From Clostridia bacterium (lineage in GTDB: Bacteria; Bacillota; Clostridia; Oscillospirales; CAG-272): a DNA stretch of 52,229 bases. Shown one piece after another: positions 18,176 to 52,229 of the stretch. The stretch lies in the NCBI GenBank assembly GCA_017467105.1, contig JAFTSU010000022.1, positions 1-52,229 of the forward strand. The letters are read 5' to 3'. A model generated the notes under the pieces. The model was not told the DNA's origin and ran no database searches. It worked only from the letters and a program-made list of their open reading frames with translations. The first letter of the stretch is position 1; each line of letters opens with the position of its first letter. The position numbers and the translations under genes are program-made.

Positions 18176-18400
18176 AATATCTCCATTCTGCCAAAAGGCA
18201 CTGTGATTTATATATTGACCGGGCAAAACAGGAGGTTCGCCATCCCGTGCCCAGAGCTTTGCCTATTATATTATAGCATCACAAACTCATATTTGCAATA
18301 TTTTTAGCAAAAAAACTTGTAAAATGTCTTGCAATACACTAAAAAATGTGATACAATATTAGTAAATAAATCAAGGCAGAAAAACTACAGGAGAAACGGT

Positions 18401-21740: not shown

Positions 21741-21795
21741 AAATGGTAAAAAACAAAGATCAATAATGCAAAAACGTCAAAAAAGAGGTATATTT

Positions 21796-23295
21796 ATGTT
21801 TGAAAGAATAAGACCCGAAGAGGCAGGCATATCCTCGAAAACCGTTCAGAAGTTTTTAGAAAAGATCCACCAGAGAGGAGCGGTCATGCACTCTCTTCTG
21901 CTCGTCCGTGACGGAAAAATATTCGCGGAGCATTACTGGGCACCGTACGATCAGGACAGTCTGCACAGAATGTACTCCCAGACAAAGAGCTACGTCGCAA
22001 TGGGCATAGGTCTTCTGGTCGACGAGGGAAAGCTAAATCTGGACGATAAGATAGCAGATCATTTCAGAGATAAGATCAAAGGCGAAATACCCACCGAGGT
22101 AGAGGAGCTTACTGTCAGAAATATGCTGACGATGACCACTGCCGGAAACGTTGCCAACTGGTTCAGGGAAAAGGTACACGACAGAACCGAGTTTTACTTC
22201 ACGGAGAGAACCAATCTCAGATCTCAAGGAACAATATGGCAGTATGACAGCGCAGGATCTCAGGTTCTTGGCGCGCTCGTTGAGAGACTTTCCGGTATGA
22301 AGCTGCTCGACTATCTGAAGGAAAAGATGTTCAATAAGATGGGCACGTTCAAAAACGCGCGTATTCTTATGATTCCTAACGGAGACAGCTGGGGAGACTC
22401 CGCACTCTACTGTACCGCCAGAGATATGGCATCCGGCGGTCAGCTGCTTTTGCAGGGAGGTAAATGGAACGGTGAGCAGCTGCTAAGCGAGCAATTTGTT
22501 AAGGATGCAACCTCTCCCTTGGTATGCAATCAGGAAAACTTTATGCCCCATGCGTTGAACTACGCAGGCTACGGCTATCAGATATGGGGCGCGCCCGGCG
22601 GCTTCGCCTTCGTCGGTATGGGAGATCAGCTCACCATATGCATACCGGACAAGAAATTTATGTTTGTCTGCACCGCGGATCATCAGGTAGCAATCGGCGC
22701 AGGCACTCAAGGCAGTATGAGGACCGTGCTGGTTAACGCTCTCTACGATTTCATTATCGATAATCTTGCCGACGCCCCTCTTGAAAGAGATGACGAGGCA
22801 TATGCCGGCTACGTGAATTACACGTCGAATCTGAAGCTGAGAGCAAGCGTAGGCAGTGAGGACTCTCCTCTGCGCGAGAAGATAAACGGAGTAGTTTACG
22901 AGTGTGAGAAAAATCAAATGGGTATCACGTCCTTCTCCTTTGTTTTCAAGGATAAAACGGAGGGCGAGTTCAGATACAGAAACGCCCAGGGAGACAAGGT
23001 CATTCCCTTTGGTGTTAACCATAATGTATTCGGCAAATTCCCTCAACTGGGATATTCGAGTGAAATGGGCGTTCTGGAAACCAACGACGGATTTATGTAT
23101 AACGACGCTGTTTCTCTCGCCTGGAGAGACGATAATAAGCTGATAGTGGACGTTAAGATCATCGACAAGTATCTTGGCTCGGCGAGCTTCTTCTTCGGTT
23201 TCAGCGGTGACAGAGCAGCCGCAAACTTCACAAAAGCAGCAGAGGCGTTCCTTGAGGAGTATAGCGGTACTCTTTACGCAACAGCAAAAAAATAG
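21796..23295 (+). CDS. Serine hydrolase, class C beta-lactamase fold (copy 2 of a tandem pair)
   Basis: The 499-residue paralogue of the preceding gene is colinear from MFERIRPEEAGISS to the end. S61-Q-T-K64 is identical in position, and WQYDSAGSQVLG carries the Tyr. ATG 21796 is supported by AGAGGT upstream; an in-frame ATG at 21766 is less well placed. The two copies probably arose by duplication and then diverged mainly in loops, which suggests related but different substrates. No secretion signal. A strong terminator closes the operon. Confidence 0.88.
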   Translation: MFERIRPEEAGISSKTVQKFLEKIHQRGAVMHSLLLVRDGKIFAEHYWAPYDQDSLHRMYSQTKSYVAMGIGLLVDEGKLNLDDKIADHFRDKIKGEIPTEVEELTVRNMLTMTTAGNVANWFREKVHDRTEFYFTERTNLRSQGTIWQYDSAGSQVLGALVERLSGMKLLDYLKEKMFNKMGTFKNARILMIPNGDSWGDSALYCTARDMASGGQLLLQGGKWNGEQLLSEQFVKDATSPLVCNQENFMPHALNYAGYGYQIWGAPGGFAFVGMGDQLTICIPDKKFMFVCTADHQVAIGAGTQGSMRTVLVNALYDFIIDNLADAPLERDDEAYAGYVNYTSNLKLRASVGSEDSPLREKINGVVYECEKNQMGITSFSFVFKDKTEGEFRYRNAQGDKVIPFGVNHNVFGKFPQLGYSSEMGVLETNDGFMYNDAVSLAWRDDNKLIVDVKIIDKYLGSASFFFGFSGDRAAANFTKAAEAFLEEYSGTLYATAKK

Positions 23296-28223: not shown

Positions 28224-30077
28224 TCATCTTCCAAAGCCAAAGCATATAGCGCGTATTATTTTTTCCGTCCTTCCCACCTCCAAGATACGCTTCTCCTCCT
28301 GCTCTATGAGATCGGCAAGCTCAGCGTTATCCGCATCGTAGCAACACATAGTCGGCGAGAAGATATTTTTAAGCTTATACTCCATGAATCGCTCTCCTCC
28401 TCCACGTCTGATCAGATCAACCGCAAACGACGTGACACCCTTTTTCCCGGGAATACGCGATATAATATCGGTGACTACCTCGCCGTCCGGCATCTCGCAG
28501 AAGCTCACCAGAGCGCTCCCGTCGTCCTGCTCTTCAAGTCTAATCATACGTGTGTTCGGCAGCTCCGGAAATACCAGCTCCAGCTTGTATTCTATCCTTC
28601 CGGATTTACCGAGATATGCCTCTCCCATAGCCTTAACGATATATCTTTCGCCTCTGAAATCCAATACCGTTTCACTATAACCGTACAGACCTATCTCAAA
28701 GGTGTATACGCATCCGCCCTCGGTAACGCTCATAATAAGGCTTTCACCCACTCGCTCTAAGGTGATCCTCTCTATCCCCGCCGAAAAATTATTCTGCATA
28801 CCGCATACGATGAACGGCAGAAGGCTGACGTTGTTTTTCGGCAGGACAAGAGTGCGAAGCATACCGTTCCACCTTATATCAAAAGCTTCCTTGCTGCGAA
28901 GCCTCAGCAGGTAGGCAAGTCCTCGCTTTCTTCTGAGCGGTCTTACCCACCTTCGACTGTCAAAGAACCGCCCTTCAAGCTCCCGCTTCACTCGCTCCTT
29001 ATTCCGCGACGGCAGATCTCTTATTTCCGCTCCCAAATACTTGCGAAGTATATCCAAAGACGCGCTGACCTGGAAAAGCTCGTTGTTGCCCGAGGTTATC
29101 ACGGCGACTATATTATTCCTCGGGCATATCCAAACGTTCTGACCTAACATACCGTTAAAGAGTATCTCGTTACTCGATCTGCCTACCCACATCTGATACG
29201 CGTAATTAAAATCACCGTTTGACATTGGAGACAGGGCGTGGGGACGAACGGATGCGGATATCCACTCCTCGGACAGTATCCGTTTCCCCTCGAACGCTCC
29301 GCCCGAAAGAACCATATATCCGAGCTTTGCCCAGGACTCAGCGGATAAATACAGCCCCCAACCGCCCTTTTCTACGCCCTCGGGGCCCTTCTCCCAAAAA
29401 TAGTTCGTAATATGAAGAGGACTAAACAGCCGTCTTTCAACCAATGAGATAAACGGCTCGCCGCTGACTCTCTCGCATATCACCGAAAGCATATAAGAAT
29501 TCATGCTGTTATAGCGAAAATCTGTTCCGGGTGAGAAACGGAGATAGGAGGAGAAAAACGCTTCCGTCCATTTCGTTTCCGTAACAGACCCAAGCTCCGA
29601 AAAGGATATTCCGCTCTGCATAGATAAAAGATGCTCCACGGTAATACCCGGAAATCTCCGATCCTTATAAGGTATCTCGGGAAAAAGGTCAACCAGCCTA
29701 TCTGAGAGCGAAAGCAGACCGTCGTCAAAGAGAAGTCCCACCGCCATACCCGTAACCGTCTTGGACATTGAATGAGAAAGATGAAATGTACCCGTGCTGT
29801 AGCCCTTTCGGGAGCATTCGGATATAACCTCGCCATCCTTCAAAACAAGAAGAGTATGTATGTTCGCCCGACTCTCATGCTCAAGCTCTGAGAGCATATT
29901 GTATATTCTCGATGAGGAAATGCCGTGAAGGTCAGCGGACGAGCGTTTGAAATACCTCTCTTCTTCTCCGGATACCTCGGTCTTCTGCGGATAATACGGT
30001 ACTACAGAGGGGTCATCTGCTCCGTTTGTAAAAAGTGAAAAAAAGAGATCCACCGATCTTTTCTGCCATTTATCCAT
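28224..30077 (-). CDS. Serine hydrolase, class C beta-lactamase fold, extended form
   Basis: The 617-residue protein has a 45-residue N-terminal extension, the catalytic domain with S103-M-S-K106 and Y189-N-S, then a long beta-rich C-terminal region (about 380-610). Like its paralogues it has no recognisable signal peptide; the N-terminus (MDKWQKRSVDLFFSLF) is amphipathic and might associate with the membrane. AGGAGG precedes ATG. It stands alone under its own promoter. The Lys/Arg-rich segment near 370-400 is unlike the other copies. Substrate unknown. Confidence 0.85.
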   Translation of the reverse strand: MDKWQKRSVDLFFSLFTNGADDPSVVPYYPQKTEVSGEEERYFKRSSADLHGISSSRIYNMLSELEHESRANIHTLLVLKDGEVISECSRKGYSTGTFHLSHSMSKTVTGMAVGLLFDDGLLSLSDRLVDLFPEIPYKDRRFPGITVEHLLSMQSGISFSELGSVTETKWTEAFFSSYLRFSPGTDFRYNSMNSYMLSVICERVSGEPFISLVERRLFSPLHITNYFWEKGPEGVEKGGWGLYLSAESWAKLGYMVLSGGAFEGKRILSEEWISASVRPHALSPMSNGDFNYAYQMWVGRSSNEILFNGMLGQNVWICPRNNIVAVITSGNNELFQVSASLDILRKYLGAEIRDLPSRNKERVKRELEGRFFDSRRWVRPLRRKRGLAYLLRLRSKEAFDIRWNGMLRTLVLPKNNVSLLPFIVCGMQNNFSAGIERITLERVGESLIMSVTEGGCVYTFEIGLYGYSETVLDFRGERYIVKAMGEAYLGKSGRIEYKLELVFPELPNTRMIRLEEQDDGSALVSFCEMPDGEVVTDIISRIPGKKGVTSFAVDLIRRGGGERFMEYKLKNIFSPTMCCYDADNAELADLIEQEEKRILEVGRTEKIIRAICFGFGR

Positions 30078-39459: not shown

Positions 39460-41148
39460 TCATATCCTCTTTATCCAGAGCTTGAAGCTCTTCGCTCCGG
39501 CGGAAAGAACAAAATCAATAAGATAGCATCCTCCAAGATACGTCGTCCTCTTTGTCACCCTCACCTCAGAAGCTCCATCACTATATCCGACCATAGCCCC
39601 GTCAACCAGCAGAGTGCCGTCATACAGCTGCGGCTCAGTGAAGGTAACGAATCGCTCCGTGATCGGCAGATCCTTTTTCAGCTGAAAGCTATCCGTCAGT
39701 GTGACTTTAGCCTCGGTCAATTCAAAGCGGCGCCTCAACGATACAACGTCAGGATTACCGTAAGCTCCGGCTATATCCAAGGTAAATAAGCTGTCGGTTG
39801 CCACCACGTCTCTCGCTTTGTAGCACTCTCCGGGAAGCTGTCCTTTGCCGTCTATTATCGGTAAAGAGTGGCTTGAGGACGATGGCTCAAAGGACAAATA
39901 TCTTTTGTCTCCAAAATAATCCGCAGTATACCTTCCCTTTCCGACGTCCGCAAATATTTGTCGACCGTCATACGCAACAATAAAACTGCCTATATCATTG
40001 TGATTATGAGGTTCATTATTGTGTCCTCCCTTGGCTGCGAAGGATATTTGACTACTTTTATTTACATACCACTGGCTTTTCTCCGCATAGAAGTATCCGA
40101 ATTCGTTTTTCTCGTCATCTGTTTTTCCGTATGGTTTTTCGGTCCACAAAACGCTTCTGAGCATATACGCGAACCGATCGCTTTGCGAATTATCGATACA
40201 GTATTTATCGCCGGGCATCGTAACGGAGCCGGAATATTTATCTCTGAGATAATGAACTATTCCACGTGAGAGCGAAGCGGTCAGTGACGCATCCGAAAAG
40301 CTGGCAACCACGTTACCCGTAAGCATTACCTTCGACGGAAACGCCGCTATCCTTTTGACGTCGTCCCGCGCAAAATAATCCTCTCTCTCCTCAGTATAAT
40401 CATACAGCATATCAGCGTAAACGGTGAAATAGCCGAATCCGAAGTCCCAATAGTTAAGTCCCTCTACGCACATGCCCTCGCCGAGAAATCCGGATATATA
40501 AAACTCCATAGCAGAGTCTATTCTCGGCTTCAGATCGGCAAGCTTCTCCGGGCAAAGCAGCATCGCAATACAACCAATACATCCGCCGCAGATGGCAGAC
40601 CAATTGTTCGTGCTGGTTTCCCACCACCACTTGTCAGCATTTGCTATAGTGGCGTCAACTGTGCGCCTCTTCGTTTCCGAAAGCAAGAGATTACTGATCA
40701 CGCCATCCATCCGACCGGAAAGAAGCACGTAAATTTCAGCAAGAGAAAAGCCGGTCTGCGCCGCAAAAAGATCAACAATGTACGGCTCATGCGAGCCGTG
40801 ACCGTGAGCGTAAACGTGAGCGGGGAGGCACCAGGTATATTCGTTGCATACGCAGAAGATGGCATCCTGAAGCTTTGAAAAATACTTGTCTTCATCGGGA
40901 TATATCAGCGAAAGCATGGCGGAGACGTTAAGTATCCTGCGCCGTTCAAAATAAGGCCTTTCGTAAACTTCACGGTCGCCTTCGGTGAAAAACAAGGTAT
41001 ATTTGCTGTACGGCAGATCGGGAAAATCCCTATTTTCACAAAGCTCGTCCCATACCGACATAAGATTCGCTATAAACGGTTTATAGTATTCTTCCTCCCT
41101 GACTTTATTCCAAAAGGACGGATCAGATGCCTTGTTAAGCAAATTCAT
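39460..41148 (-). CDS. Heparinase II/III-family protein, putative polysaccharide lyase
   Basis: The 562-residue protein has an N-terminal (alpha/alpha) toroid (about 1-335, with STNNWSAICGGCIG and EGLNYWDFGFGYF) and a C-terminal beta domain starting with KGGHNNEPHNHNDIGSF (about 373-389), the clearest heparinase II/III signature. These lyases cleave uronate-containing polysaccharides such as heparan sulfate or alginate. It lacks a signal peptide, so it would act on imported oligosaccharides. ATG 41148 is preferred to TTG 41157 because AAAGG would abut TTG. A tiny frame precedes it. It lies between secG and rnr. Confidence 0.85.
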   Translation of the reverse strand: MNLLNKASDPSFWNKVREEEYYKPFIANLMSVWDELCENRDFPDLPYSKYTLFFTEGDREVYERPYFERRRILNVSAMLSLIYPDEDKYFSKLQDAIFCVCNEYTWCLPAHVYAHGHGSHEPYIVDLFAAQTGFSLAEIYVLLSGRMDGVISNLLLSETKRRTVDATIANADKWWWETSTNNWSAICGGCIGCIAMLLCPEKLADLKPRIDSAMEFYISGFLGEGMCVEGLNYWDFGFGYFTVYADMLYDYTEEREDYFARDDVKRIAAFPSKVMLTGNVVASFSDASLTASLSRGIVHYLRDKYSGSVTMPGDKYCIDNSQSDRFAYMLRSVLWTEKPYGKTDDEKNEFGYFYAEKSQWYVNKSSQISFAAKGGHNNEPHNHNDIGSFIVAYDGRQIFADVGKGRYTADYFGDKRYLSFEPSSSSHSLPIIDGKGQLPGECYKARDVVATDSLFTLDIAGAYGNPDVVSLRRRFELTEAKVTLTDSFQLKKDLPITERFVTFTEPQLYDGTLLVDGAMVGYSDGASEVRVTKRTTYLGGCYLIDFVLSAGAKSFKLWIKRI

Positions 41149-41153
41149 ATTTT

Positions 41154-41195
41154 TCAACCTTTCGTTACTTCAATTGATGTTATTTTACTCATCAT
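41154..41195 (-). CDS. Possible 13-residue leader peptide before the heparinase gene
   Basis: MMSKITSIEVTKG starts five bases after GAGGTG and stops six bases before the heparinase ATG. Spacing and ribosome site suit a coupled leader peptide. It could be chance. Confidence 0.25.
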   Translation of the reverse strand: MMSKITSIEVTKG

Positions 41196-41333: not shown

Positions 41334-41660
41334 TTATTTACCGATCTTATCTACTATGTCAGAATAGTTATTGAGGTACTCGTTAGTCCAATCCTCAAGG
41401 CTGAAGCCCTGGGAGTAATCAGGCTGAATAATATAAACAACCAGAACCGCAACTGCAAATACTATGCTGGCGATAACAGTCCACTTAAAGAGTGTTCTGT
41501 CGGTGTGGGAGGACTTATCCTTGCCGTAGAAGGTCTCGGAGCCGCCGGCGATAGTACCGGAAAGACCGTCCTCGTTGCTCTTCTGAAGAAGAACAGCTGC
41601 TATAATCACGAAAGCGGCAATAATAAGAACCGCTATGAGAATGTACTCTAAAACTACCAT
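41334..41660 (-). CDS. secG: Preprotein translocase subunit SecG
   Basis: The 108-residue protein has two membrane helices (about 3-25 and 59-79) and the SecG loop between them: LLQKSNEDGLSGTIAGGSETFYG. It is an auxiliary part of the SecYEG channel that eases SecA-driven export. The C-terminal acidic tail (85-108) is longer than in the shortest forms. The start is 41660, with AAAGG about ten bases upstream. It has its own promoter and terminator. Confidence 0.95.
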   Translation of the reverse strand: MVVLEYILIAVLIIAAFVIIAAVLLQKSNEDGLSGTIAGGSETFYGKDKSSHTDRTLFKWTVIASIVFAVAVLVVYIIQPDYSQGFSLEDWTNEYLNNYSDIVDKIGK

Positions 41661-41724
41661 TTCAAGAACCTTTCACTTTATTACTCCATGCCAAAATAAA
41701 GGCATAGGACGATTAGCATACACT

Positions 41725-41753
41725 ATTTTAACACAAACAAATCAAAAATGCAA
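41725..41753 (-). promoter_or_regulatory. Promoter of secG
   Basis: Minus strand TTGCAT (41748-41753), 17 bases, TAAAAT (41725-41730). Confidence 0.75.
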
Positions 41754-41825
41754 GTGTTTTTTTTATCTTTTTTTCTTTTTTCAAAAAATGGACTCTTCAG
41801 ATGTGTTTAAGTTATTTTTTTATAC

Positions 41826-41837
41826 AAAACGCGTTTT
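41826..41837. promoter_or_regulatory. AAAACGCGTTTT palindrome upstream of the paralogue array
   Basis: This 12-bp perfect palindrome with a central CG pair sits about 30 bases before the TATAAT (41868-41873) of the array promoter. The form resembles LacI-family operators. The promoter has no clear -35, as expected for an activated promoter. Confidence 0.45.
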
Positions 41838-41914
41838 ATTTTATACACTTTATTTATTATTTTAAGCTATAATCAAATTGATCCACTGTTTTTTCATGAC
41901 TTTTCGGAGGTATT

Positions 41915-43864
41915 ATGCTTACAATTAACAAGCTTATATCAAATCCGGTTGTAGATTACGCCGCGGAGGAGCTGAGAAAATATCTCAGAATGATGATGCC
42001 GGAGCGCGGCGACGTAAAAATCAATTACGATCCCGACGCTAGCTGTGGCTTTCGTCTCGGACTGATGCAGGACGCGGGGCTCGATATTTCCGACGCGCAG
42101 GACCCCGAGCTTGACGACCTGATTTATATTGATTGTGACACCGATGGCGGTATGATCGCGGGAGATAACCCCAGAAGCGTGCTTATAGCGGTATACGAGT
42201 ATCTGAGACAAAACGGTTGCGAATGGCCGATGCCGGGCGTTGACGGCGAGCTTATTCCAATGCAGGACATCGTGCCCGTCAAGCTCCGCCACAAGCCCTC
42301 TATGAGATACCGCGGAAGCTGCCAGGAAGGAGCGCCAGGTCAGCATACTCTGAACACCTTCTTCGAGTGGATGCCAAAGGTGGGATTCAACACTTTTATG
42401 ATACAGTTTAGAATTCCGAAGGAGTTCTACGACAGATACTATAACCGTCTCTACTACAAAACGCCAAGGCCGAAGGCGCCACTTTCACTCACACAGATGC
42501 AGCAATGGAGCGCGCTGACTGAATGCGAAATGCAGAAGCGCGGAATTATGATTCATTGGGGTGGTCACGGTTGGACAAACGACCCCTTTGGAGTGGATTC
42601 TCTCCTGGCTTGGAGAGTATTGGATAACAGTATCATTCCGGAGGATTACAGGGAATTCTTCGCCCTTCGTAACGGAGTGCGCGGATTTTACAACGGCAGA
42701 CCTGCCAACACGCAGTTCTGTATGTCGAACGCAAGAGCGAGAGAGCTGTTTGTAAATTACGTAGTGGAATACGCAAAAAAGCACACCGGTATAGACTATC
42801 TACACATCTGGCTGGGTGATGCCAACGGCAATCACTGCGAGTGCGAGCATTGCTACGAGCGCACCGTATCCGATTGGTATATGATACTTCTGAACGAGGT
42901 AGATGCGGAACTCAGCGCGGCGGGGCTGACGACGAAGATAGTGTTCATCGCCTACGAGGACACGACCTGGGCACCGGTCACGGAGAAAATCAATAATCCG
43001 GAGCGCTTCACGTTGATGATTGCGCCTATATCACGGGATTACGATAAGACTCTCGGCGACCCTGATCCCTCAATAGTCAAGGTGCCGTTTGTCAGAAACA
43101 AGATGAGAATGACTCAGTCGCTCGAGGAATACTTTATGTACTTCGACGATTGGAAGAAAATCTGGCACGGCTCAAACGTATGCTTCGAGTACCATTTCTG
43201 GAGAAACTACTTTCATGATCTATCCGGTCAGGTGCTGGCGAAGAGAATATACGAGGACACCCGCGCGTATAAAGAAAACGGCATAGCCGGTATCATTCAA
43301 TGCGGAGCGCAGCGCTCATTCTTCCCTAACGGATACCCGATGTATCTATCTGCAAGAGTGCAGTATGATATAAATCTTCCTCTTGACAAAATTCTGGAGA
43401 ATTATTACACCGCGGCATACGGTGAAGCTTGGGAGCAATTCAGAGACACCTTAAGGAAGCTCTCCGATGCGGTCCCCTACGCGTATATTTCCGCGCAACA
43501 CGCGGAAAAGAGAAAAAATACGTACTATGATCCCACTATGGTACCTCGCATAGAGAAGCTGAAGGATATAACTAAGGAGCTGAGAGCGCTGATAAAGGAC
43601 AACTACAACTCCGATTACCGTGTGAGAACGGTATCCGTCAGACTTCTGGAGGTTTACTGCGAATACGTAGACCGTTTCTCCGATATGCTGAAGCGGCTTG
43701 CTATGGGCGAGGAATGCGACGCGGAGCATGACAGAATAATCGAGCTGCTTGTAAAATGGGAGGACGAATATGAAACGTACTTTGACATTTGCATTGCGGA
43801 CAGCGCTCTGTCTACCATCAAACGCACCTCGGATAAAATCAAAAGTCTGAATATCTCAAATTAA
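41915..43864 (+). CDS. DUF4838/GH163-like protein, array copy 1 (divergent, second Glu missing)
   Basis: This 649-residue protein has an N-terminal alpha/beta domain (about 1-110, YAAEELRKYLRMMMP and MIAGDNPRSVLIAVYEYLRQNG) like those preceding many glycosidases. A TIM-barrel-like middle follows with CECEHC (C308, C310, C313), then a helical C-terminus. This is the DUF4838 pattern; part of that family is GH163 endo-beta-N-acetylglucosaminidase. E138 (CQEGA) is kept, but where the other copies have Glu (IIEDGSQRSFFPTG) this one has Q462 (IIQCGAQRSFFPNG). It may be inactive or altered. No signal peptide. CGGAGG precedes ATG. Confidence 0.75.
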   Translation: MLTINKLISNPVVDYAAEELRKYLRMMMPERGDVKINYDPDASCGFRLGLMQDAGLDISDAQDPELDDLIYIDCDTDGGMIAGDNPRSVLIAVYEYLRQNGCEWPMPGVDGELIPMQDIVPVKLRHKPSMRYRGSCQEGAPGQHTLNTFFEWMPKVGFNTFMIQFRIPKEFYDRYYNRLYYKTPRPKAPLSLTQMQQWSALTECEMQKRGIMIHWGGHGWTNDPFGVDSLLAWRVLDNSIIPEDYREFFALRNGVRGFYNGRPANTQFCMSNARARELFVNYVVEYAKKHTGIDYLHIWLGDANGNHCECEHCYERTVSDWYMILLNEVDAELSAAGLTTKIVFIAYEDTTWAPVTEKINNPERFTLMIAPISRDYDKTLGDPDPSIVKVPFVRNKMRMTQSLEEYFMYFDDWKKIWHGSNVCFEYHFWRNYFHDLSGQVLAKRIYEDTRAYKENGIAGIIQCGAQRSFFPNGYPMYLSARVQYDINLPLDKILENYYTAAYGEAWEQFRDTLRKLSDAVPYAYISAQHAEKRKNTYYDPTMVPRIEKLKDITKELRALIKDNYNSDYRVRTVSVRLLEVYCEYVDRFSDMLKRLAMGEECDAEHDRIIELLVKWEDEYETYFDICIADSALSTIKRTSDKIKSLNISN

Positions 43865-43926
43865 CGGTACAATGTCAAAAGCAAACGCCCGAACCCCATC
43901 AATTAACCACAAGAAAGGCAAACAAA

Positions 43927-45891
43927 ATGATGAAAATCAACAAACTCATATCGGTAAGCGCTGTAGACTACGCGGCAGAGGAATTAAAGAAATATCTCAG
44001 AATGATGATGCCCGAGGGCGGAGATATTTCTATAGCATACGACCCAAGTGCAACCGACGGCTTCCGTCTCGGTCTTATGCAGGATTTCGGTCTTGACGTA
44101 TCTGACGCAGAAGATACCGAGCTTGACGATATTCTGTACATAGATTGCGACACGGATGGGGGCATAATTGCCGGAGACAACCCGAGATCAGTGCTGATCT
44201 CCGTTTACGAGTACCTTCGTCAGAACGGCTGCCGCTGGCTATTCCCCGGCGTTGACGGCGAGTATATACCTATGCAGGATATCGCGCCGGTTAGGTACCG
44301 CCACAAGCCGACTATGCGCTACCGTGGATGGTGTAACGAGGGCGCTGAATATCAGCAATGTATGCTGGACGCGATAGACTTTGTTCCCAAGGTCGGTATG
44401 AACACCTTTATGATCGAGTTCAGAATTCCCACATCCTACTATCTGCGCCACTACAACCACACTCACAACACGGAAAATCGAAAGCCGGAGCCGGTAAGCT
44501 TCAACACCATACTCCAGTGGAAAAGGCAGTGCGAGGTCGAGGTGGCAAAGCGCGGTCTGCAGCTTCACGATATTGGTCACGGCTGGAATGCGGATGCCTT
44601 TGGTATAGACTCCTCGTTACGCGCAAACGATGGCAAAAACGACGCGGCTCTGACCGACGAGCAGCGCAAATATCTCCCTCTCATAAACGGCAAGCGAGGA
44701 CTTCGCGGAGACACCCCGAACTACACTCAGTTCTGCATGGGTGACGACGAAGCAAGAGCAAAGGTCGTGAAATACGTTTGCGATTATGCGGAAAAACACA
44801 AGGGCTCCGACTATCTGCACGTTTGGCTCGGCGATGCGGTAAACTCCCACTGCGAGTGTGAAAAGTGCGTAAAGCGCACTCCCACAGACTTCTACATTAT
44901 GATGCTGAACGCCATAGACGAGGAGCTGACACGCAGAAGTCTTAACACACGTATAGTGTTTATTTTCTACACGGATACGGTCTACCCGCCCGAAACGGAA
45001 AGAATTATCAACCAGGAAAGATTCACCATGCTCTTCGCTCCGATAGGCAGAAAATATACCGAAACGGAGCCTGAGGTAACGGAAGAATATACGATACCCC
45101 CCTACGTCAGAAACGAATTTGAAATGCCGAACAACCTCCCGCACACATTCACCTATTACAATAAGTGGAGAGAATGGTGGCGCGGCTCAGCTGTAGCATA
45201 CGAGTATCACTTCTGGCGTCACCAGTACTACGACGTTGGCGGCTTGGAGATCGCAAAGCGCGTGAATGAGGACGTACGAGCTTATATGGCGCGCGACATC
45301 AACGGAATAATTGAGGACGGCTCGCAGCGCTCCTTCTTCCCCACGGGTTACCCCTTCTATTGCTACGCGAGATCTATGTACGATATGTCGCTTACCGCAG
45401 AGGAGATAGCGGAGGATTACTTCTCTCACGCATTCGGTGAGAGATGGCGCGAGTTCTACGATTACTTAAAGCGTCTCGGAGATGCCTTCGACTTCGGATA
45501 TATGGAAGGTGAGAAGAGCGCTAACAATGCCGTTGGAGCAAGATACAATCCCGCTCATGCGGAGAGAATTGCCAAGGTGAGAGAAATAACCAAAGAAGGC
45601 AGAGCTCTCATAAAGGAGTGCTACAACTCCGATTACAGAGTACAGACAAGAGCTGTCAGAATACTTGAGATGCACGCAGACTATGCGGATTTGCTGTCCG
45701 ATGCGGTCAGAGAAAAGGCTCTCGGAAACGACGAGCGCGCAAACGAGCTTTATAACAGATTCAGAATTGAGATAGGAAAGAGAGAGGCGGAATTTGAGAC
45801 CTGCTACGATCATCCCCTTATATTCTATTCCTTCAGTCCCTTCTTTGCATCAAAGAGTAATACCGAGGCTATTATTACGCTTGGAAACTAA
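43927..45891 (+). CDS. DUF4838/GH163-like protein, array copy 2
   Basis: This 654-residue copy keeps both candidate acids: E138 (CNEGAEYQ) and E463 (IIEDGSQRSFFPTG), with C309-E-C-E-K-C314 between them. Conserved aromatic blocks include YEYHFWRHQYYDVGG. The protein is cytosolic by absence of a leader. ATG 43927 or 43930 could be used; AAAGG lies nine to twelve bases upstream. It is 62 bases after copy 1 in the same direction. Two stretches (44122-44196 and 44221-44288) are identical in DNA to copy 4, and 44023-44084 is identical to copy 5. Confidence 0.78.
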   Translation: MMKINKLISVSAVDYAAEELKKYLRMMMPEGGDISIAYDPSATDGFRLGLMQDFGLDVSDAEDTELDDILYIDCDTDGGIIAGDNPRSVLISVYEYLRQNGCRWLFPGVDGEYIPMQDIAPVRYRHKPTMRYRGWCNEGAEYQQCMLDAIDFVPKVGMNTFMIEFRIPTSYYLRHYNHTHNTENRKPEPVSFNTILQWKRQCEVEVAKRGLQLHDIGHGWNADAFGIDSSLRANDGKNDAALTDEQRKYLPLINGKRGLRGDTPNYTQFCMGDDEARAKVVKYVCDYAEKHKGSDYLHVWLGDAVNSHCECEKCVKRTPTDFYIMMLNAIDEELTRRSLNTRIVFIFYTDTVYPPETERIINQERFTMLFAPIGRKYTETEPEVTEEYTIPPYVRNEFEMPNNLPHTFTYYNKWREWWRGSAVAYEYHFWRHQYYDVGGLEIAKRVNEDVRAYMARDINGIIEDGSQRSFFPTGYPFYCYARSMYDMSLTAEEIAEDYFSHAFGERWREFYDYLKRLGDAFDFGYMEGEKSANNAVGARYNPAHAERIAKVREITKEGRALIKECYNSDYRVQTRAVRILEMHADYADLLSDAVREKALGNDERANELYNRFRIEIGKREAEFETCYDHPLIFYSFSPFFASKSNTEAIITLGN

Positions 45892-45944
45892 ATTCAAAGC
45901 AAAACAGTACAAACGAATTCAGCTATATTTTGGAGCATGCTAAA

Positions 45945-47906
45945 ATGATAATTAACAAGATAACATCAAGCAGCGTGATCGACTACGCCGCCGAGGAGCT
46001 TAAAAAGTATTTGCGTATGATGATGCCCGAGGGTGGGGATATATCCATCTCCTACGACACGAAGGCAAAGGACGGCTTCCGTCTCGGTCTTATGCAGGAT
46101 TTCGGTCTTGACGTGTCGGACGCAGAAAATACCGAACTTGACGACATTTTATATATAGACTGCGACGAGAAGGGCGGTATCATCGCCGGTGATAACCCCC
46201 GCTCCGTGCTCCTCACGGTATACGAATATTTAAGACAGAACGGCTGCAGATGGCTGATGCCGGGTGTGGACGGAGAGTTTATTCCGATGCAGAATATCAA
46301 GCCGGTAAAATACCGTCATAAGCCCTCTATGCGCTATCGCGGATTCTGTAACGAGGGCGCGGAATTCCAGCAGTGTATGCTGGACGCAATAGAGTTTATT
46401 CCAAAGCTTGGAATGAACGTTTTTATGCTGGAGTTTAAGGTGCCGAGAGTTTACTACGACTGGTATTACAACCATGCGCAGAACACAGAAAACTATCCGA
46501 AAGAATCGGTAAGTGTCCGTCAGATATTACAGTGGAAAAGGCAGTGCGAGGCAGAAATTGCAAAGCGCGGTTTACAATTTCACGATATTGGACACGGATT
46601 TACTATGGATGCCTTTGGCATCGACTCGTCCTGGAGAGCATATGACGGCATAGATTATAACGAGCGCCTTACCGATGAGCAAAGGGATGCCGTAGCTATG
46701 ATTAACGGCGAAAGAAAGCTGTATAACAACACTCCAAACTGGACCAATTTCTGTATGTCTAAGGAGTGGGCACAGGATAAATTTACAGAATACGTTGCGG
46801 ACTATGCGGAAAACCACAAGGGCTCCGACTATCTGCACGTGTGGCTTGCAGACGGCACAAACAATCACTGCGAGTGTGAGGAATGTCAGAGGAAGACTCC
46901 GTCCGACTGGTACATGCTGCTTATGAACAAGGTGGATCGGGAGCTGACTCGCAGAAATCTCAAAACCCGAATCGTGTTTATCGCGTACGTTGATACGTCC
47001 TGGGCTCCGAAAGAATTGATGATAGAAAATCAGGACAGGTTCACTCTTATGCTGGCTCCGATTACCCGGAGCTACACCGAAACGTTGCCTGCTTGGGGAG
47101 TTAAGGCCGTTACAAAGCCTTACGTAAGAAACAAAAACAAGATGCCAAAGGATCTTGAGGAATATCTCGCTTACTTCGCGGATTGGAAAAAATCCGGCTG
47201 GAAGGGCGCTAATATTTGCTATGAGTATCACTTCTGGCGTCATCAGTACTACGATATTTCCGGTATTGAGATTTCGAAGCTGATAGTAGACGATGTGCGT
47301 ACCTATCTCGAATACGGCATCAACGGAATTATCGAGGACGGCTCGCAGCGCTCATTCTTCCCCACCGGTCTTGCTTTCTACACCTACGCGAGAAGTATGT
47401 ACGATGCAACCCTTACGGCAGACGAGATCGCGGAGGATTATTTCGCTACCGCGTTCGGCGAGGATTGGAAGCTCTTCTACGATTATCTGAAAGAGCTGGA
47501 GAGCAGAATGAAATATCGCTTCTGCCAAGGCACGATGTCTGCTAACCGCGAGGTTTCGGCGTTCTATAATCCCGAAGAAGCGAAAATACTCGCTACAGTA
47601 CCGGAGGTGGTAAGCCGTGGCAGAGAGCTTATCAAATCACACTACAACTCCGATTATCGCGTCAGAACCGTATCCGCAAGGCTTCTGGAACATCACGCGG
47701 ACTTCGCGGAAATCCACGCGGCAGCGCTCAGAGAAAAGGCTCTCGGCAACGACGAGGGCGCAAAGGAGCTCGGCCTGAAGCTGCGAATAGAGTTTGGAAA
47801 GCGAGAGCCTCTGATCCGGACTTACTTCGATCAATACGAGTGCTTTATGTACTTGAATCATACCATATATAATTCCAAGACCAATACTGCGGCTATAACC
47901 GTATGA
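45945..47906 (+). CDS. DUF4838/GH163-like protein, array copy 3
   Basis: This 653-residue copy has E137 (CNEGAEFQ) and E464 (IIEDGSQ) and the CECEEC cluster. It is closest by eye to copy 4: both have DWKKSGWKGAN or DWKKAGWKGAN and the NTPNWTNFCMS segment. ATG 45945 has GGAG nine bases upstream; a TTG at 45930 is in frame but lacks a ribosome site. The gap from copy 2 is 53 bases and to copy 4 only 21, indicating one operon. No secretion signal. Confidence 0.78.
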   Translation: MIINKITSSSVIDYAAEELKKYLRMMMPEGGDISISYDTKAKDGFRLGLMQDFGLDVSDAENTELDDILYIDCDEKGGIIAGDNPRSVLLTVYEYLRQNGCRWLMPGVDGEFIPMQNIKPVKYRHKPSMRYRGFCNEGAEFQQCMLDAIEFIPKLGMNVFMLEFKVPRVYYDWYYNHAQNTENYPKESVSVRQILQWKRQCEAEIAKRGLQFHDIGHGFTMDAFGIDSSWRAYDGIDYNERLTDEQRDAVAMINGERKLYNNTPNWTNFCMSKEWAQDKFTEYVADYAENHKGSDYLHVWLADGTNNHCECEECQRKTPSDWYMLLMNKVDRELTRRNLKTRIVFIAYVDTSWAPKELMIENQDRFTLMLAPITRSYTETLPAWGVKAVTKPYVRNKNKMPKDLEEYLAYFADWKKSGWKGANICYEYHFWRHQYYDISGIEISKLIVDDVRTYLEYGINGIIEDGSQRSFFPTGLAFYTYARSMYDATLTADEIAEDYFATAFGEDWKLFYDYLKELESRMKYRFCQGTMSANREVSAFYNPEEAKILATVPEVVSRGRELIKSHYNSDYRVRTVSARLLEHHADFAEIHAAALREKALGNDEGAKELGLKLRIEFGKREPLIRTYFDQYECFMYLNHTIYNSKTNTAAITV

Positions 47907-47927
47907 CCGGTGTCAAAAGGAGAAGCA

Positions 47928-49907
47928 ATGCTGAAGATTAACAAAATAACCCCCTGCAGTCCCATAGATTACGCCGCGGAGGAACTGAAGAAATATCTGC
48001 GTATGATGATGCCCGAAGCTGGAGATGTAAAGATCGCCTACGCGCCTGATGCTACGGACGGCTTCCGCCTCGGACTTATGCAGGATTTCGGTCTTGACGT
48101 GTCGGACGCAGAAGATACCGAACTTGACGATATTCTGTACATAGATTGCGACACGGATGGGGGCATAATTGCCGGAGACAACCCGAGATCAGTGCTGCTC
48201 TCCGTTTACGAGTATCTCCGCCAGAACGGCTGCCGCTGGCTATTCCCCGGCGTTGACGGCGAGTATATACCTATGCAGGATATCGCGCCTGTTAAGTACC
48301 GCCACGCACCCACCTCTCGCTATCGCGGCTTCTGCAATGAGGGCGCGGAGTACCAGCAATGTATGCTGGATGCAATTGATTTCATACCCAAGGTCGGAAT
48401 GAACGTCTTTATGCTGGAGTTCAGAGTACCTAAGGGCTACTACGGCTCCTATTACACTCACAGAGCTAACGTGGAAACCCGAAATCCCGAGCCCGTCAGC
48501 AACCGTCAGATACTTCAATGGAAAAGGCAGTGCGAGGCTGAGATCGCAAAGCGCGGACTACAGTTCCACGATATCGGACACGGCTGGACCATGGACCCGT
48601 TTGGCATTGACTCCTCTTGGAGAGGATCTGATCCCATCGACCACAACACCGAGCTTACCGAGGAGCAGAAATCCTATATAGCGCTTCTCAACGGCGAGAG
48701 AAAGCTTATGCGCAACACTCCAAACTGGACCAACTTCTGTATGTCCCGCCCCGACGCGCAGGAGAAGTTCGTCAAGTACGTAGCAGACTATGCGGAAAAG
48801 CACTCAAACGCGGATTACTTCCACGTATGGCTCGGTGATCTTCACAACAACCATTGCGAATGCGAGGGCTGTCAGAAAAAATCCCCATCAGACTGGTATA
48901 TGCTTCTGATGAATATGCTGGACGAGGAGCTGACGGCAAGAGCTCTTGACACCCGTATCGTATTTATCGTTTACGTCGATACCTCCTGGGCTCCGAGCGA
49001 GGAGATGATCAAAAACCAGAAGAGATTCTCTATGCTCTTCGCTCCTATAACCCGAGACTACACTATGACCTTACCCGAATGGGGAGTAAAGGCGCAGACC
49101 GTGCCATACGTCAGAAACAAGCTGAGGCTTCCAAAGGATCTTGAGGAATATCTTGCGTACTTTGCCGATTGGAAGAAGGCTGGATGGAAGGGAGCAAACC
49201 TCTCCTACGAATATCACTTCTGGCGGCATCAGCATCTGGATATGACGGGAATAGAGATATCTAAGGTTATTAACAACGACGTACGCACCTATAATGAGTA
49301 CGGAATTAACGGCATTATCGAGGACGGATCACAGCGTTCCTTCTTCCCCACGGGTCTCCCCTTCTACACATACGCAAGATCTCTGTACGATGACAGTCTG
49401 AGCGCGAAAGAGATCTCAGAGGAATACCTCTCTTGCGCATTCGGCGAGGATTGGAAGGATTTCTACGAGTATCTTCTCGAGCTTGAGTCGAAAATAAAGT
49501 ATCGCTACCTTCAGGGCAAGCTGTCGGAGAATAGGAATGCCTCTCCCTTCTACTCACCAAAAACGGCAGATCTGATCTCAACCGTCGGCGAGACTCTGGA
49601 AAAGGGACGGCGGCTGATAGACAGCCACTACAACTCCAACTACCGTGTGAGAACGGTATCTGTAAGACTGCTGGAGCATCACCTGGATTACACTCGTATG
49701 CTGGCGGATGCGCTCTATGAGAAGGCTCTCGGCAATGACGATGCAGCAGACGAAAAATTCGAGAGCATGCGCGTGGAGTTTGGAAAAAGGGAGTGCGATA
49801 TACAGGCGTACTTTGACCATTGTCAATGCTTCACGTATTTGAAAAACGATATATTCGATAAAAAAACAATTAAACAAGAAATATCTATTGTCAGCGAGAT
49901 TATTTGA
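47928..49907 (+). CDS. DUF4838/GH163-like protein, array copy 4
   Basis: At 659 residues this is the longest copy, with a slightly longer C-terminus (KNDIFDKKTIKQEISIVSEII). Candidate acids are E138 and E465, and the cysteine cluster is CECEGC. AAAGGAG lies just before ATG 47928; an in-frame GTG at 47910 is less likely. Next to its neighbours it is spaced by 21 and 13 bases. Parts of its first third are identical in DNA to copy 2 while the middle follows copy 3, suggesting recombination between copies. Confidence 0.78.
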   Translation: MLKINKITPCSPIDYAAEELKKYLRMMMPEAGDVKIAYAPDATDGFRLGLMQDFGLDVSDAEDTELDDILYIDCDTDGGIIAGDNPRSVLLSVYEYLRQNGCRWLFPGVDGEYIPMQDIAPVKYRHAPTSRYRGFCNEGAEYQQCMLDAIDFIPKVGMNVFMLEFRVPKGYYGSYYTHRANVETRNPEPVSNRQILQWKRQCEAEIAKRGLQFHDIGHGWTMDPFGIDSSWRGSDPIDHNTELTEEQKSYIALLNGERKLMRNTPNWTNFCMSRPDAQEKFVKYVADYAEKHSNADYFHVWLGDLHNNHCECEGCQKKSPSDWYMLLMNMLDEELTARALDTRIVFIVYVDTSWAPSEEMIKNQKRFSMLFAPITRDYTMTLPEWGVKAQTVPYVRNKLRLPKDLEEYLAYFADWKKAGWKGANLSYEYHFWRHQHLDMTGIEISKVINNDVRTYNEYGINGIIEDGSQRSFFPTGLPFYTYARSLYDDSLSAKEISEEYLSCAFGEDWKDFYEYLLELESKIKYRYLQGKLSENRNASPFYSPKTADLISTVGETLEKGRRLIDSHYNSNYRVRTVSVRLLEHHLDYTRMLADALYEKALGNDDAADEKFESMRVEFGKRECDIQAYFDHCQCFTYLKNDIFDKKTIKQEISIVSEII

Positions 49908-49920
49908 GAGGAGAACAACA

Positions 49921-51882
49921 ATGATTAAAATCAACAAGATCACGTCAAACACCACGGTGGATTTCGCAGCTGAGGAGCTCAAGAAATACCTAAGAATGAT
50001 GATGCCCGAGGGTGGGGATATTTCTATAGCATACGACCCAAGTGCAACCGACGGCTTCCGTCTCGGTCTTATGCAGGACTTTGGACTTGACGTGTCGGAT
50101 GCAGAGGAGCCCGAGCTTGACGATATTCTCTACATAGATTGCGACACCGAGGGCGGTATAATCGCAGGCTCAAACTACCGTTCGGTGCTGCTCACCGTAT
50201 ACGAGTATCTCCGTCAGAATGGTTGCCGCTGGCTTATGCCCGGTGTTGACGGCGAGTTTATTCCCATGCAGGATATTGTAGCCGTAAAGTATCGCTTCAA
50301 GCCCTCCTGCCGTTACAGAGGACAGTGCAACGAGGGCGCGGAGTTCCAGGCTGATATGCTGGAGACCATCGACTTCACACCCAAGATCGGTATGAACGTC
50401 TATATGCTTGAGTTCCGCGTTCCCACCCCTTATTACAAGAGCTACTACAATCACATATACAACACCGAAAACCGCAATCCCGAGCCTCTCTCCGACAGGC
50501 AGGTTCTCCAGTGGAAGAGACAGTGTGAGGCTGAAATTGCAAAGCGCGGTTTACAATTCCACGATATTGGACACGGATTTACAATTGATCCCTTCGGCAT
50601 CGATTCTGCAAACGCTTGGTCAAAGGTCGACGAATCTGTAGTGCCCGAGGAGTCGCGCGATTTCCTTGCAATGCTAAACGGTGAGAGAAAGCTTTACCGC
50701 GGTCAGCCCATCAACACGAATTTCTGTATGTCAAACCCCAAGGCGCGTAAAAAGGTTGCTGATTACGTTGCAAGCTACGCTGAAGGTCACTCCAACATAG
50801 ACTACCTGCACGTTTGGCTTGCCGATGCGTATAACAACCACTGCGAGTGTGACGAGTGCAGAAAGAAGACTCCCTCCGACTGGTATATGGTTCTGATGAA
50901 CGATATTGACGATGCTCTTTCGGCAAAGGGTCTTAACACCCGTATCGTTTTCATCGTTTACGTTGATACCACATGGCCTCCCGTTACCGAGAGGATCAAG
51001 AACCCTGAAAGATTCGCTATTCTTTTAGCTCCCATCTCCCGTAGCTATCTTATGACTCTGCCCGAGGGCGGAGTTACCTCAAAGCCCAAGCCCTTCGTGC
51101 TTAACAAGCTAACTCTTCCGGGATCTCTTGAGGAGTATCTTGCGTACTTTGCAGAGTGGAAAAAGTTCTGGCGCGGCGCGGCGTTCTCCTACGAGTATCA
51201 CTTCTGGTGGCATCAGTGCTGCGATCTTGGCGGCATCGAGCTTTCGCGCAGAATAAACGAGGACGTAAGAGTATATAAGGAGCATGCCGTGAACGGCGTT
51301 GTTGAGGATGGCTCTCAGCGCTCATTCTTCCCCACAGGTCTTGCGTTCTATACCTATGGAAGAAGCCTCTTTGATACCTCCCTTACCGCCGAGGAAATCG
51401 CGGAGGATTACTTCTCGCACGCATTTGGCAAGGATTGGAAAAGGTTCTACGATTATCTTGAAAAGGTAGGTAAAATATTTAACGTAAGCTATCTCGAGGG
51501 CGCGAACAGCTCAAACGTAAACGTATCTGTCTTCTACAACCCGGAGTACGCAAAGAGCCTTGACGCTTTGGACGGCGTTCTCGCGGAGGGTCGCGCTCTT
51601 ATAGAGAGCCACTACAACTCCGATTACAGAGTAAGAACGGTATCCGTCAGACTCCTTGAGTATCATCAGGAGCTGTGTATGAAGCTGGCAGAGGTTCTTA
51701 AGCTTAAGGCTGTTGGTGACGACAAGGGAGCGTCCGAGAAGTTTGCCGAGCTTCGTATATCATTCGGCAAGCACGAGTGCGAGATAGAAACCTTCTACGA
51801 TCACTCCCTCTACTTCAGCCGCTACAACAGAATGATCAACGTGTTCGAATCGAAGCTCGAAAACGCAATAACCGAGATATAA
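49921..51882 (+). CDS. DUF4838/GH163-like protein, array copy 5
   Basis: This 653-residue copy has E138 and E462 (VVEDGSQ), with CECDEC. Between about 213 and 265 it resembles copy 1 rather than 2-4 (PE-R-F-A-NG-R---G-P-NT-FCMSN pattern). Other stretches match copy 2 (50017-50078, identical DNA) or copy 3. GGAG precedes ATG 49921, 13 bases after the stop of copy 4. A strong hairpin without a T-tract follows, then copy 6. Confidence 0.78.
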   Translation: MIKINKITSNTTVDFAAEELKKYLRMMMPEGGDISIAYDPSATDGFRLGLMQDFGLDVSDAEEPELDDILYIDCDTEGGIIAGSNYRSVLLTVYEYLRQNGCRWLMPGVDGEFIPMQDIVAVKYRFKPSCRYRGQCNEGAEFQADMLETIDFTPKIGMNVYMLEFRVPTPYYKSYYNHIYNTENRNPEPLSDRQVLQWKRQCEAEIAKRGLQFHDIGHGFTIDPFGIDSANAWSKVDESVVPEESRDFLAMLNGERKLYRGQPINTNFCMSNPKARKKVADYVASYAEGHSNIDYLHVWLADAYNNHCECDECRKKTPSDWYMVLMNDIDDALSAKGLNTRIVFIVYVDTTWPPVTERIKNPERFAILLAPISRSYLMTLPEGGVTSKPKPFVLNKLTLPGSLEEYLAYFAEWKKFWRGAAFSYEYHFWWHQCCDLGGIELSRRINEDVRVYKEHAVNGVVEDGSQRSFFPTGLAFYTYGRSLFDTSLTAEEIAEDYFSHAFGKDWKRFYDYLEKVGKIFNVSYLEGANSSNVNVSVFYNPEYAKSLDALDGVLAEGRALIESHYNSDYRVRTVSVRLLEYHQELCMKLAEVLKLKAVGDDKGASEKFAELRISFGKHECEIETFYDHSLYFSRYNRMINVFESKLENAITEI

Positions 51883-51889
51883 ACCTATT

Positions 51890-51911
51890 CCGAGGCGGAA
51901 ATCCGCCTCGG
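51890..51911 (+). terminator. Strong hairpin between array copies 5 and 6
   Basis: CCGAGGCGGA (51890-51899) pairs with TCCGCCTCGG (51902-51911) around a two-base gap; the innermost pairs must open to form a loop. No U-tract follows, so it is better seen as an mRNA-stabilising or attenuating structure than a full terminator. Confidence 0.5.
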
Positions 51912-52031
51912 ACACGATAAAACAGATGACCTCAGTGCGCTGTTTGCTGCGTAATCGATGATAACATTATATTAGCTTCAAACGTCTCAAGGACCTTTAA
52001 CCAAGATGCGAAATAGAAAGGATACTCGAAT

Positions 52032-52229
52032 ATGTTGAAAATACGCAAAATCACTTCCGCCTCTCCTATAGATTATGCGGCAGAGGAGTTAAAGAAATAT
52101 CTCAGAATGATGATGCCCGAGGGCGGAGATATATCCATCAGCTACGATCCGGAGGCAAAGGACGGCTTCAGACTTGGACTTATGCAGGACTTCGGTCTTG
52201 ACGTATCTGACGCAGAAGATACCGAGCTT
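52032..52229 (+). CDS. DUF4838/GH163-like protein, array copy 6, N-terminal fragment
   Basis: Sixty-six codons are visible (MLKIRKITSASPIDYAAEEL, then the KKYLRMMMPEGGD block) before the window ends. The end of this fragment is identical in DNA to copy 2 over its last stretch (LDVSDAEDTEL). AAAGGA lies about ten bases before ATG 52032. The 149-base gap from copy 5 is the largest in the array, so copy 6 might have its own control. The candidate active-site residues lie outside the window. Confidence 0.78.
   Translation, partial: MLKIRKITSASPIDYAAEELKKYLRMMMPEGGDISISYDPEAKDGFRLGLMQDFGLDVSDAEDTEL

Follow-up and report, generated by a model that had tools for sequence, protein, structure and literature searches.

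Why would a gut clostridium carry, side by side, a row of genes for one kind of glycosidase, and what would so many related enzymes do inside the cell? The locus that raises this question lies at the end of the window, by which we mean the whole stretch of DNA analysed (52,229 bases). In the metagenome-assembled genome from which it comes, here G000 (1.68 Mb, 29 contigs, 56.6% complete), the window makes up contig C12. With moderate confidence, we regard the locus as a transcription unit of seven genes for putative cytosolic glycosidases of the DUF4838 family (GH163-like), which would act on imported N-acetylhexosamine oligosaccharides and whose N-terminal domain (N-domain) has been homogenised between copies.

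The array and its continuation

Positions 41915-52229 of the forward strand hold five complete paralogues (649-659 aa), head to tail, followed by the start of a sixth (Table 1), which confirms the claim of the initial annotation that at least six tandem paralogues of about 650 residues lie on one strand. The frames are not chance, as judged by their length and mutual identity. Protein identity is 49-71% over the 10 pairs of complete window copies and 47-71% over the 21 pairs that include copies 6 and 7; copies 3 and 4 are 71% identical. Four of the five intergenic gaps (62, 53, 21, 13, and 149 bases) fall in the range of 13-62 bases first described as typical, the last being longer. A purine-rich, Shine-Dalgarno-like sequence, judged by eye, precedes the starts. 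A promoter inside the array was considered and rejected, the scan of 41600-52229 having found 16 promoter-like sites against a shuffle mean of 12.5 (sd 3.2), which is not above chance. The genes may well be read as a single transcript.

The last 44 bases of the window are identical to the first 44 bases of contig C8. Since copy 2 agrees with this tract at 43 of 44 positions as well, the overlap by itself does not prove that C12 and C8 join. C8 carries the rest of a copy, then the complete copy 7 and then a hairpin of 15 pairs with a T run (-25 kcal/mol, z -5.2 vs shuffles). Terminator-like sites on C8 are at chance level (2 found vs 2.3 expected); the one that follows copy 7, though, is much more stably folded than its shuffled versions. 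Beyond its last copy, C8 continues with DUF4317, AraC, and GH3, the same genes that follow the last copy of the secG-bordered array at locus L044 of another genome, and the array therefore most likely comprises seven genes. Thus, extending the array to count its copies, as had been proposed, adds the remainder of copy 6 and copy 7 and probably brings the number to seven; further copies between the two contigs are possible. Three singletons, on C3, C13, and C18, raise the subfamily to ten genes in this incomplete genome, which also has one canonical DUF4838 gene on C10.

Table 1. Coordinates of the array, its left border, and other genes of the window
Feature	Position	Strand	Description
copy 1	41915..43864	+	DUF4838 protein, 649 aa; PF16126 52.1 bits; GGAGG before ATG
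copy 2	43927..45891	+	654 aa; codons 1-125 share exact DNA tracts with copies 3, 4, 5, and 6
copy 3	45945..47906	+	653 aa, ATG start; mechanical ORF opens at TTG 45930; sister of copy 4
copy 4	47928..49907	+	659 aa; sister of copy 3 in whole-protein tree; N-domain DNA nearest copy 6
copy 5	49921..51882	+	653 aa; PF16126 45.3 bits; pairs with third copy of L043
copy 6 start	52032..52229	+	66 codons, cut by contig end; remainder probably G000 C8:3-1799
AT-rich leader	41661..41914	+	between divergent secG-like gene and copy 1; putative, likely promoter region
secG-like gene	41334..41660	-	left border of array site
heparinase II/III-C-like gene	39460..41157	-	PF07940 28 bits (cut-off 24); between rnr and secG
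PF00144 protein	3515..6196	-	beta-lactamase family; also has amidohydrolase match
PF00144 protein	20250..21737	+	beta-lactamase family; adjacent to next
PF00144 protein	21766..23292	+	beta-lactamase family
PF00144 protein	28224..30077	-	beta-lactamase family; fourth in window
Eco57I/N6-methylase-like protein	18329..19912	+	
alpha-L-rhamnosidase-like protein	1356..3362	+	PF17389

Family, cellular location, and conserved residues

The proposed membership of DUF4838 (Pfam PF16126, curated cut-off 26.6 bits) is borne out. As single sequences, copies 1 and 5 score above the cut-off and copies 2, 3, and 4 do not; in a genome search, seven of the ten subfamily genes of G000 pass, the same three copies lying below. 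Among 62 diverse members, 57 match PF16126 at E <= 0.001, and a profile-profile comparison of the 62 with 17 canonical DUF4838 proteins of the order gives 99.8% and an E of 2.3e-29 over 457 columns. On this profile-level evidence, the array proteins, including copies 2-4, belong to DUF4838. The subfamily set holds 120 proteins (123 collected, three contained ones dropped); the canonical set consists of 30 ORFs from the same order, taken as the longest ORF in each case and with unverified starts, of which 17 were chosen for alignment. DUF4838 occurs at E <= 1e-10 in 46 of 147 genomes of the order.

The assignment to GH163 rests on a literature label: PMC9870897 gives a DUF4838 protein that name. 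The earlier wording was too strong, and we call the array proteins GH163-like. If the label holds generally, the GH163 endo-beta-N-acetylglucosaminidase of Bacteroides thetaiotaomicron has the same Pfam domain. In the review PMC10154615, Bacteroides GH163 is described as acting at the surface, where it frees LacNAc antennae, and the B. thetaiotaomicron enzyme is placed at the cell surface, whereas the array proteins have no secretion signals and occur in tandem arrays. Among solved structures, profile comparison gave no match beyond the distant GH67 alpha-glucuronidases (PDB 1k9d and others), at E 8e-4 with the A2 profile, the best value for the array subfamily, and E 0.008 with the A1 profile. 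This likeness covers pieces of the N-domain and of the barrel end, with the catalytic core unaligned; a full-length match to GH67 or GH115 that includes the core was not found. Neither family is among the three matched by the 62 members, and copy 5 reaches Glyco_hydro_67C at E 0.011, below cut-off. The canonical DUF4838 profile reaches GH67, GH115, and GH84 O-GlcNAcase (E about 1e-4), mostly through its N-terminal domain.

With the canonical DUF4838 proteins of the same order, the array proteins have in common an N-terminal alpha/beta domain, a barrel with an Asp followed by CxCxxC, an invariant upstream Cys and, for the most part, the lack of a secretion signal. They differ in having, between residue 130 and the CxCxxC region, stretches that the canonical proteins lack, in a highly conserved KYLRMMM-type segment of the N-domain, and in that copies 2-4 have no single-sequence Pfam match.

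A hydropathy scan over residues 1-35 of the 116 members that are 600 aa or longer detected a hydrophobic N-terminus in none of them, and by the same measure no signal peptide or lipobox of a secreted or surface glycosidase was found among them. The six window starts, extended upstream to the previous stop, still gave no hydrophobic N-terminus, and the absence of a signal peptide noted in the initial annotation therefore holds. Judged by hydropathy, the array proteins are cytosolic, as is common in the order: 28 of the 30 canonical ORFs also lack a hydrophobic N-terminus (starts unverified; L132 is perhaps in the wrong frame). The suggestion that a cytosolic multi-copy set would be unusual was too strong in view of this comparison and of the finding that genomes of other genera reach up to 13-14 DUF4838 matches, some of them paired.

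As first described, E138, CxCxxC, and the SFFP block (here RSFFP) are present in 5/5 complete window copies. The C8 copies keep E138 and CxCxxC, the block there reading RVYFP and RSYFP. Across the ten G000 copies, the 27 conserved residues checked are intact, with T at 138 in the C18 copy as the sole exception. E138 was rejected as a family-wide catalytic residue: it is kept in 113 of 120 subfamily members, and the stretch around it has no equivalent in canonical DUF4838. C269, D302, C308, C310, and C313 (copy 5 numbering for the cysteines) occur in 120/120 members, and their profile-aligned canonical counterparts C223, D256, C261, C263, and C266 are invariant in 17/17 sequences. CxCxxC is present at 29 of 30 canonical loci, L132, which may be read in the wrong frame, being the one without it. 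C269, C308, C310, and C313 likely form a four-cysteine metal site. That CxCxxC, the upstream Cys, and the preceding Asp define the family is our reading, not a statement of Pfam.

Copy number and uneven divergence of the paralogues

A conserved block of tadA-like, unnamed, rnr-like, and secG-like genes (tadA, rnr, and secG being names read from sequence by us, not from a family search) borders the array on the left, and recurs at L044 and L045 and in genome G014; L043 shows only secG and what follows. The same block without an array is found in G022 and G074, and the secG of G012 was seen by protein search alone. Beside secG stand probably seven copies in G000, four in L043, three in L044, one in L045, at least one in G014 (contig end), and none in G012, G022, and G074, members of the genus without any subfamily copy, where a 470-aa protein, perhaps a transporter, takes the place of the array. 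Only the left border is common to all. DUF4317 lies on the right in G000, L044, and L043 (after a fucosidase), whereas L045 and the three array-free sites have other right-hand genes. The heparinase II/III-C-like gene between rnr and secG is absent from this position in L044, L045, G014, G022, G012, and G074 (the corresponding stretch of L043 is outside view). Tandem gain and loss appears to be the best explanation for these differences in copy number beside secG.

The subfamily is present at E <= 1e-50 in 21 of 69 genomes of the genus, own included, and at E <= 1e-60 in 24 of 391 genomes drawn from the class, a survey in which at most three candidates per genome were scored and copy numbers are thus lower bounds. 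Two of the 20 genomes reached via named loci hold 12 and 13 matches (E <= 0.001, a few weak). One or two in-frame TAA codons interrupt G049:C7:42415-44358, G045:C6:15833-17755, and G044:C21:32428-34389, possibly decayed members or assembly errors.

In a tree of 42 chosen rows, copy 7 clusters with the final copies of L043 and G001, copy 5 pairs with the third L043 copy (fork 99/94), and copy 2 joins the first L044 copy. Copies 3 and 4 form a sister pair (100/100). The tandem arrays of L108 (1995-13972, six copies), L071 (7943-13997, three), and L074 (10001-16228, three) each form a single clade within those rows, which suggests separate amplifications. Synonymous divergence of the barrel and C-terminal parts is near saturation among paralogues (pS 0.69-0.83); the paralogues are therefore old and, being also under purifying selection, probably not redundant.

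The N-domain departs from this pattern. Exact DNA tracts of 44-75 bases in the N-domain connect copy 2 to each of copies 3-6, and also copies 4 and 6 to each other, against longest tracts of 12-26 bases outside it; for copies 2 and 4, the values are 75 bases and, in the rest of the pair, 19. The nearest DNA neighbour lies within the same genome for 13/20 N-domains, 6/20 barrels, and 7/20 C-termini. Over 14 array copies from three genomes, the ratio of within- to between-genome distance is 0.848 for codons 26-125 (9 of 5000 label shuffles as low), and 1.028 (barrel) and 1.011 elsewhere; at third codon positions, it is 0.835 (1 of 5000) for the same codons and 1.012 for the barrel. The L108 array has no synonymous homogenisation of the N-domain (pS 0.67 and 0.68). 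Contigs break inside the N-domain in G000 and in G014, where the first base of both C27 and C35 already belongs to a copy. Codons 26-125 resemble one another more closely inside a genome than across genomes, which suggests domain-limited gene conversion.

The same signal could instead reflect strong shared constraint together with the codon preference of the genome and no conversion at all, which we consider rather unlikely. The N-domain is indeed the most conserved part of the protein (mean top-residue frequency 0.736 vs 0.611 for the barrel, 120 members), and its pN is low between genomes too, at 0.132 vs 0.282 in non-orthologous pairs of the G000 and L043 arrays (pS 0.72 and 0.73); constraint therefore contributes. 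However, the ratio of N-domain to barrel pN is 0.59-1.16 in eight pairs of best-matching copies across species (0.127 and 0.125 for copy 7 and L043 copy 4) but 0.31-0.67 in seven arrays or pairs within genomes (0.133 vs 0.290 in G000; 0.100 vs 0.278 in L043), which weakens the view that the N-domain is merely more constrained. The confinement of the third-position excess to codons 26-125 and the length of the exact tracts also speak against it. Gene conversion acting together with constraint is the simplest reading of the pattern, and homogenisation may have arisen from the higher starting identity of the N-domain alone. Were the copies instead to do the same job, the array raising the amount of enzyme and the sequences drifting slowly, then the tandem arrangement, the copy-number change beside secG, and the homogenised N-domain would all be expected. 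We hold this dosage effect to be quite improbable, as copies 3 and 4, the most similar pair of the array, already differ at 26% of their barrel residues, the synonymous sites of the gene bodies are near saturation, and three of the seven copies (2, 5, and 7) have their tree partners in other species and not among their array neighbours, so that the differences have been kept for long.

Tandem gene families under segmental gene conversion have one segment homogenised while others diverge. The array resembles them in its one uniform segment and divergent remainder, and differs in that the segment is one domain of a bacterial glycosidase array; the literature matches listed contain no report of domain-limited conversion in bacterial glycoside hydrolases. 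A homogenised N-terminus is compatible with the hetero-oligomer first imagined, although simpler explanations exist. A constant/variable repertoire, in which continual gene conversion keeps the N-domain interchangeable because every copy has to dock on a common partner or on the others in mixed oligomers, while the barrels diversify into a cytosolic set of matched glycosidases and the composition of the locus becomes species-specific, strikes us as a bolder and rather unlikely extension.

Gene neighbourhood and putative substrate

The family member on C13 lies in the order Gfo/Idh, xylose-isomerase-like, DUF4838, PIG-L, Gfo/Idh, weak NagB match, PfkB, class II ketose-bisphosphate aldolase, and GH20C, which we read as a putative amino-sugar operon; the NagB-like protein scores 38 bits against a cut-off of 237 and has no Pfam match. 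A similar cluster at L042 comprises Gfo/Idh, two copies, PIG-L, and NagB-like, with no kinase, aldolase, or GH20C in view. Copy 1 of the array, whose nearest relative within G000 is the C13 copy, forms a clade with that copy and both L042 copies (support 100/100), which ties one array member to the amino-sugar context. The copy on C18 adjoins a GH3 gene whose best NCBIfam match is beta-N-acetylhexosaminidase (127 bits, below the cut-off of 207), and in which what we take to be the KHFPG motif is altered.

PIG-L and ceramidase are N-deacylases, and the context therefore fits N-acylated sugars. Within 3 kb of a family copy lie 5 of 14 PIG-L genes (0.28 expected, ten genomes) and 11 of 25 ceramidase-like genes (0.5 expected, 18 genomes), the latter becoming 11 of 52 (1.37 expected) with 27 rows of G050 included; as the genomes were partly picked for adjacency already seen, these figures are no clean test. 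The expectations are a rough length calculation, and weak or fragment family matches were omitted. The ceramidase count draws on 54 rows in 18 genomes, of which 25 were used, the 27 G050 rows and the second fragments G051:C102:3218-3418 and G239:C134:7507-7689 being left out. A short ceramidase-like protein, possibly a sugar N-deacylase, is the commonest labelled family among the nearest same-strand neighbours, at 12 loci (L065, L078, L087, L090, L093, L101, L103, L104, L105, L106, L117, and L120). G050 (2.1 Mb), which holds the six-copy L108 array, has 27 matches to the neutral ceramidase N-terminal family (E <= 0.001), several clustered, and 0/27 within 3 kb of a DUF4838 copy.

The array's own neighbours (secG, heparinase-II/III-like, DUF4317, AraC, GH3, and in L043 also fucosidase) include no amino-sugar genes. 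Furthermore, 74 of the 87 runs consist of one gene, beside neighbours of various kinds, and one substrate class for all members is thus unsupported. Of 112 unlabelled neighbours, 81 were within length limits and 61 were scanned, the best 25 of 92 families being considered. Gene context suggests a cytosolic breakdown of N-acetylhexosamine oligosaccharides, and the idea in the initial annotation that imported oligosaccharides are the substrate agrees with the context of one close relative, that on C13.

Alternatively, the enzymes could be cytosolic glycosidases that attack uronic-acid or plant-cell-wall oligosaccharides, for instance alpha-glucuronidases like those of GH67/GH115, the C13 context being one specialisation of many; this is possible, though we doubt it. 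Here belong the GH67 structures as best matches, the reach of the canonical profile to GH67 and GH115, the heparinase II/III-like gene adjoining the array, GH115 as at least 1 of the 61 scanned neighbours, and the plant-rich gut of the hosts, which, where named, are all ruminants (goat, deer, yak, sheep, buffalo, and cattle). However, the shared match consists of the N-terminal domain and a short stretch at the barrel end, O-GlcNAcases share that domain too, and amino-sugar genes recur beside close relatives. In the amino-sugar reading that we prefer, N-acetylhexosamine-containing oligosaccharides would be taken up, and the paralogues would each cleave, in the cytosol, a different one of several related linkages or decorations. 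Enzymes encoded next to the C13 family member would then deacetylate, deaminate, phosphorylate, and split the amino sugar so released. Gene conversion would be the simplest means by which the N-domain is homogenised from copy to copy while the barrels stay distinct.

The array is a real and unusually long set from an understudied but known glycosidase family, an unusual variant that is cytosolic, as is common in the order. What our comparison suggests as new is the variation in copy number beside secG (0, 1, 3, 4, and 7), the age of the paralogues, and the domain-limited homogenisation. DUF4838 is common in these gut bacteria yet almost unstudied, and the domain is rarely named in the literature searched. 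If the proposed substrate is true, seven aligned paralogues, together with the partly orthologous arrays of three and four copies, would map specificity onto sequence. The domain-limited homogenisation, in turn, provides a testable case of an enzyme family in which one domain is uniform and the catalytic part variable.
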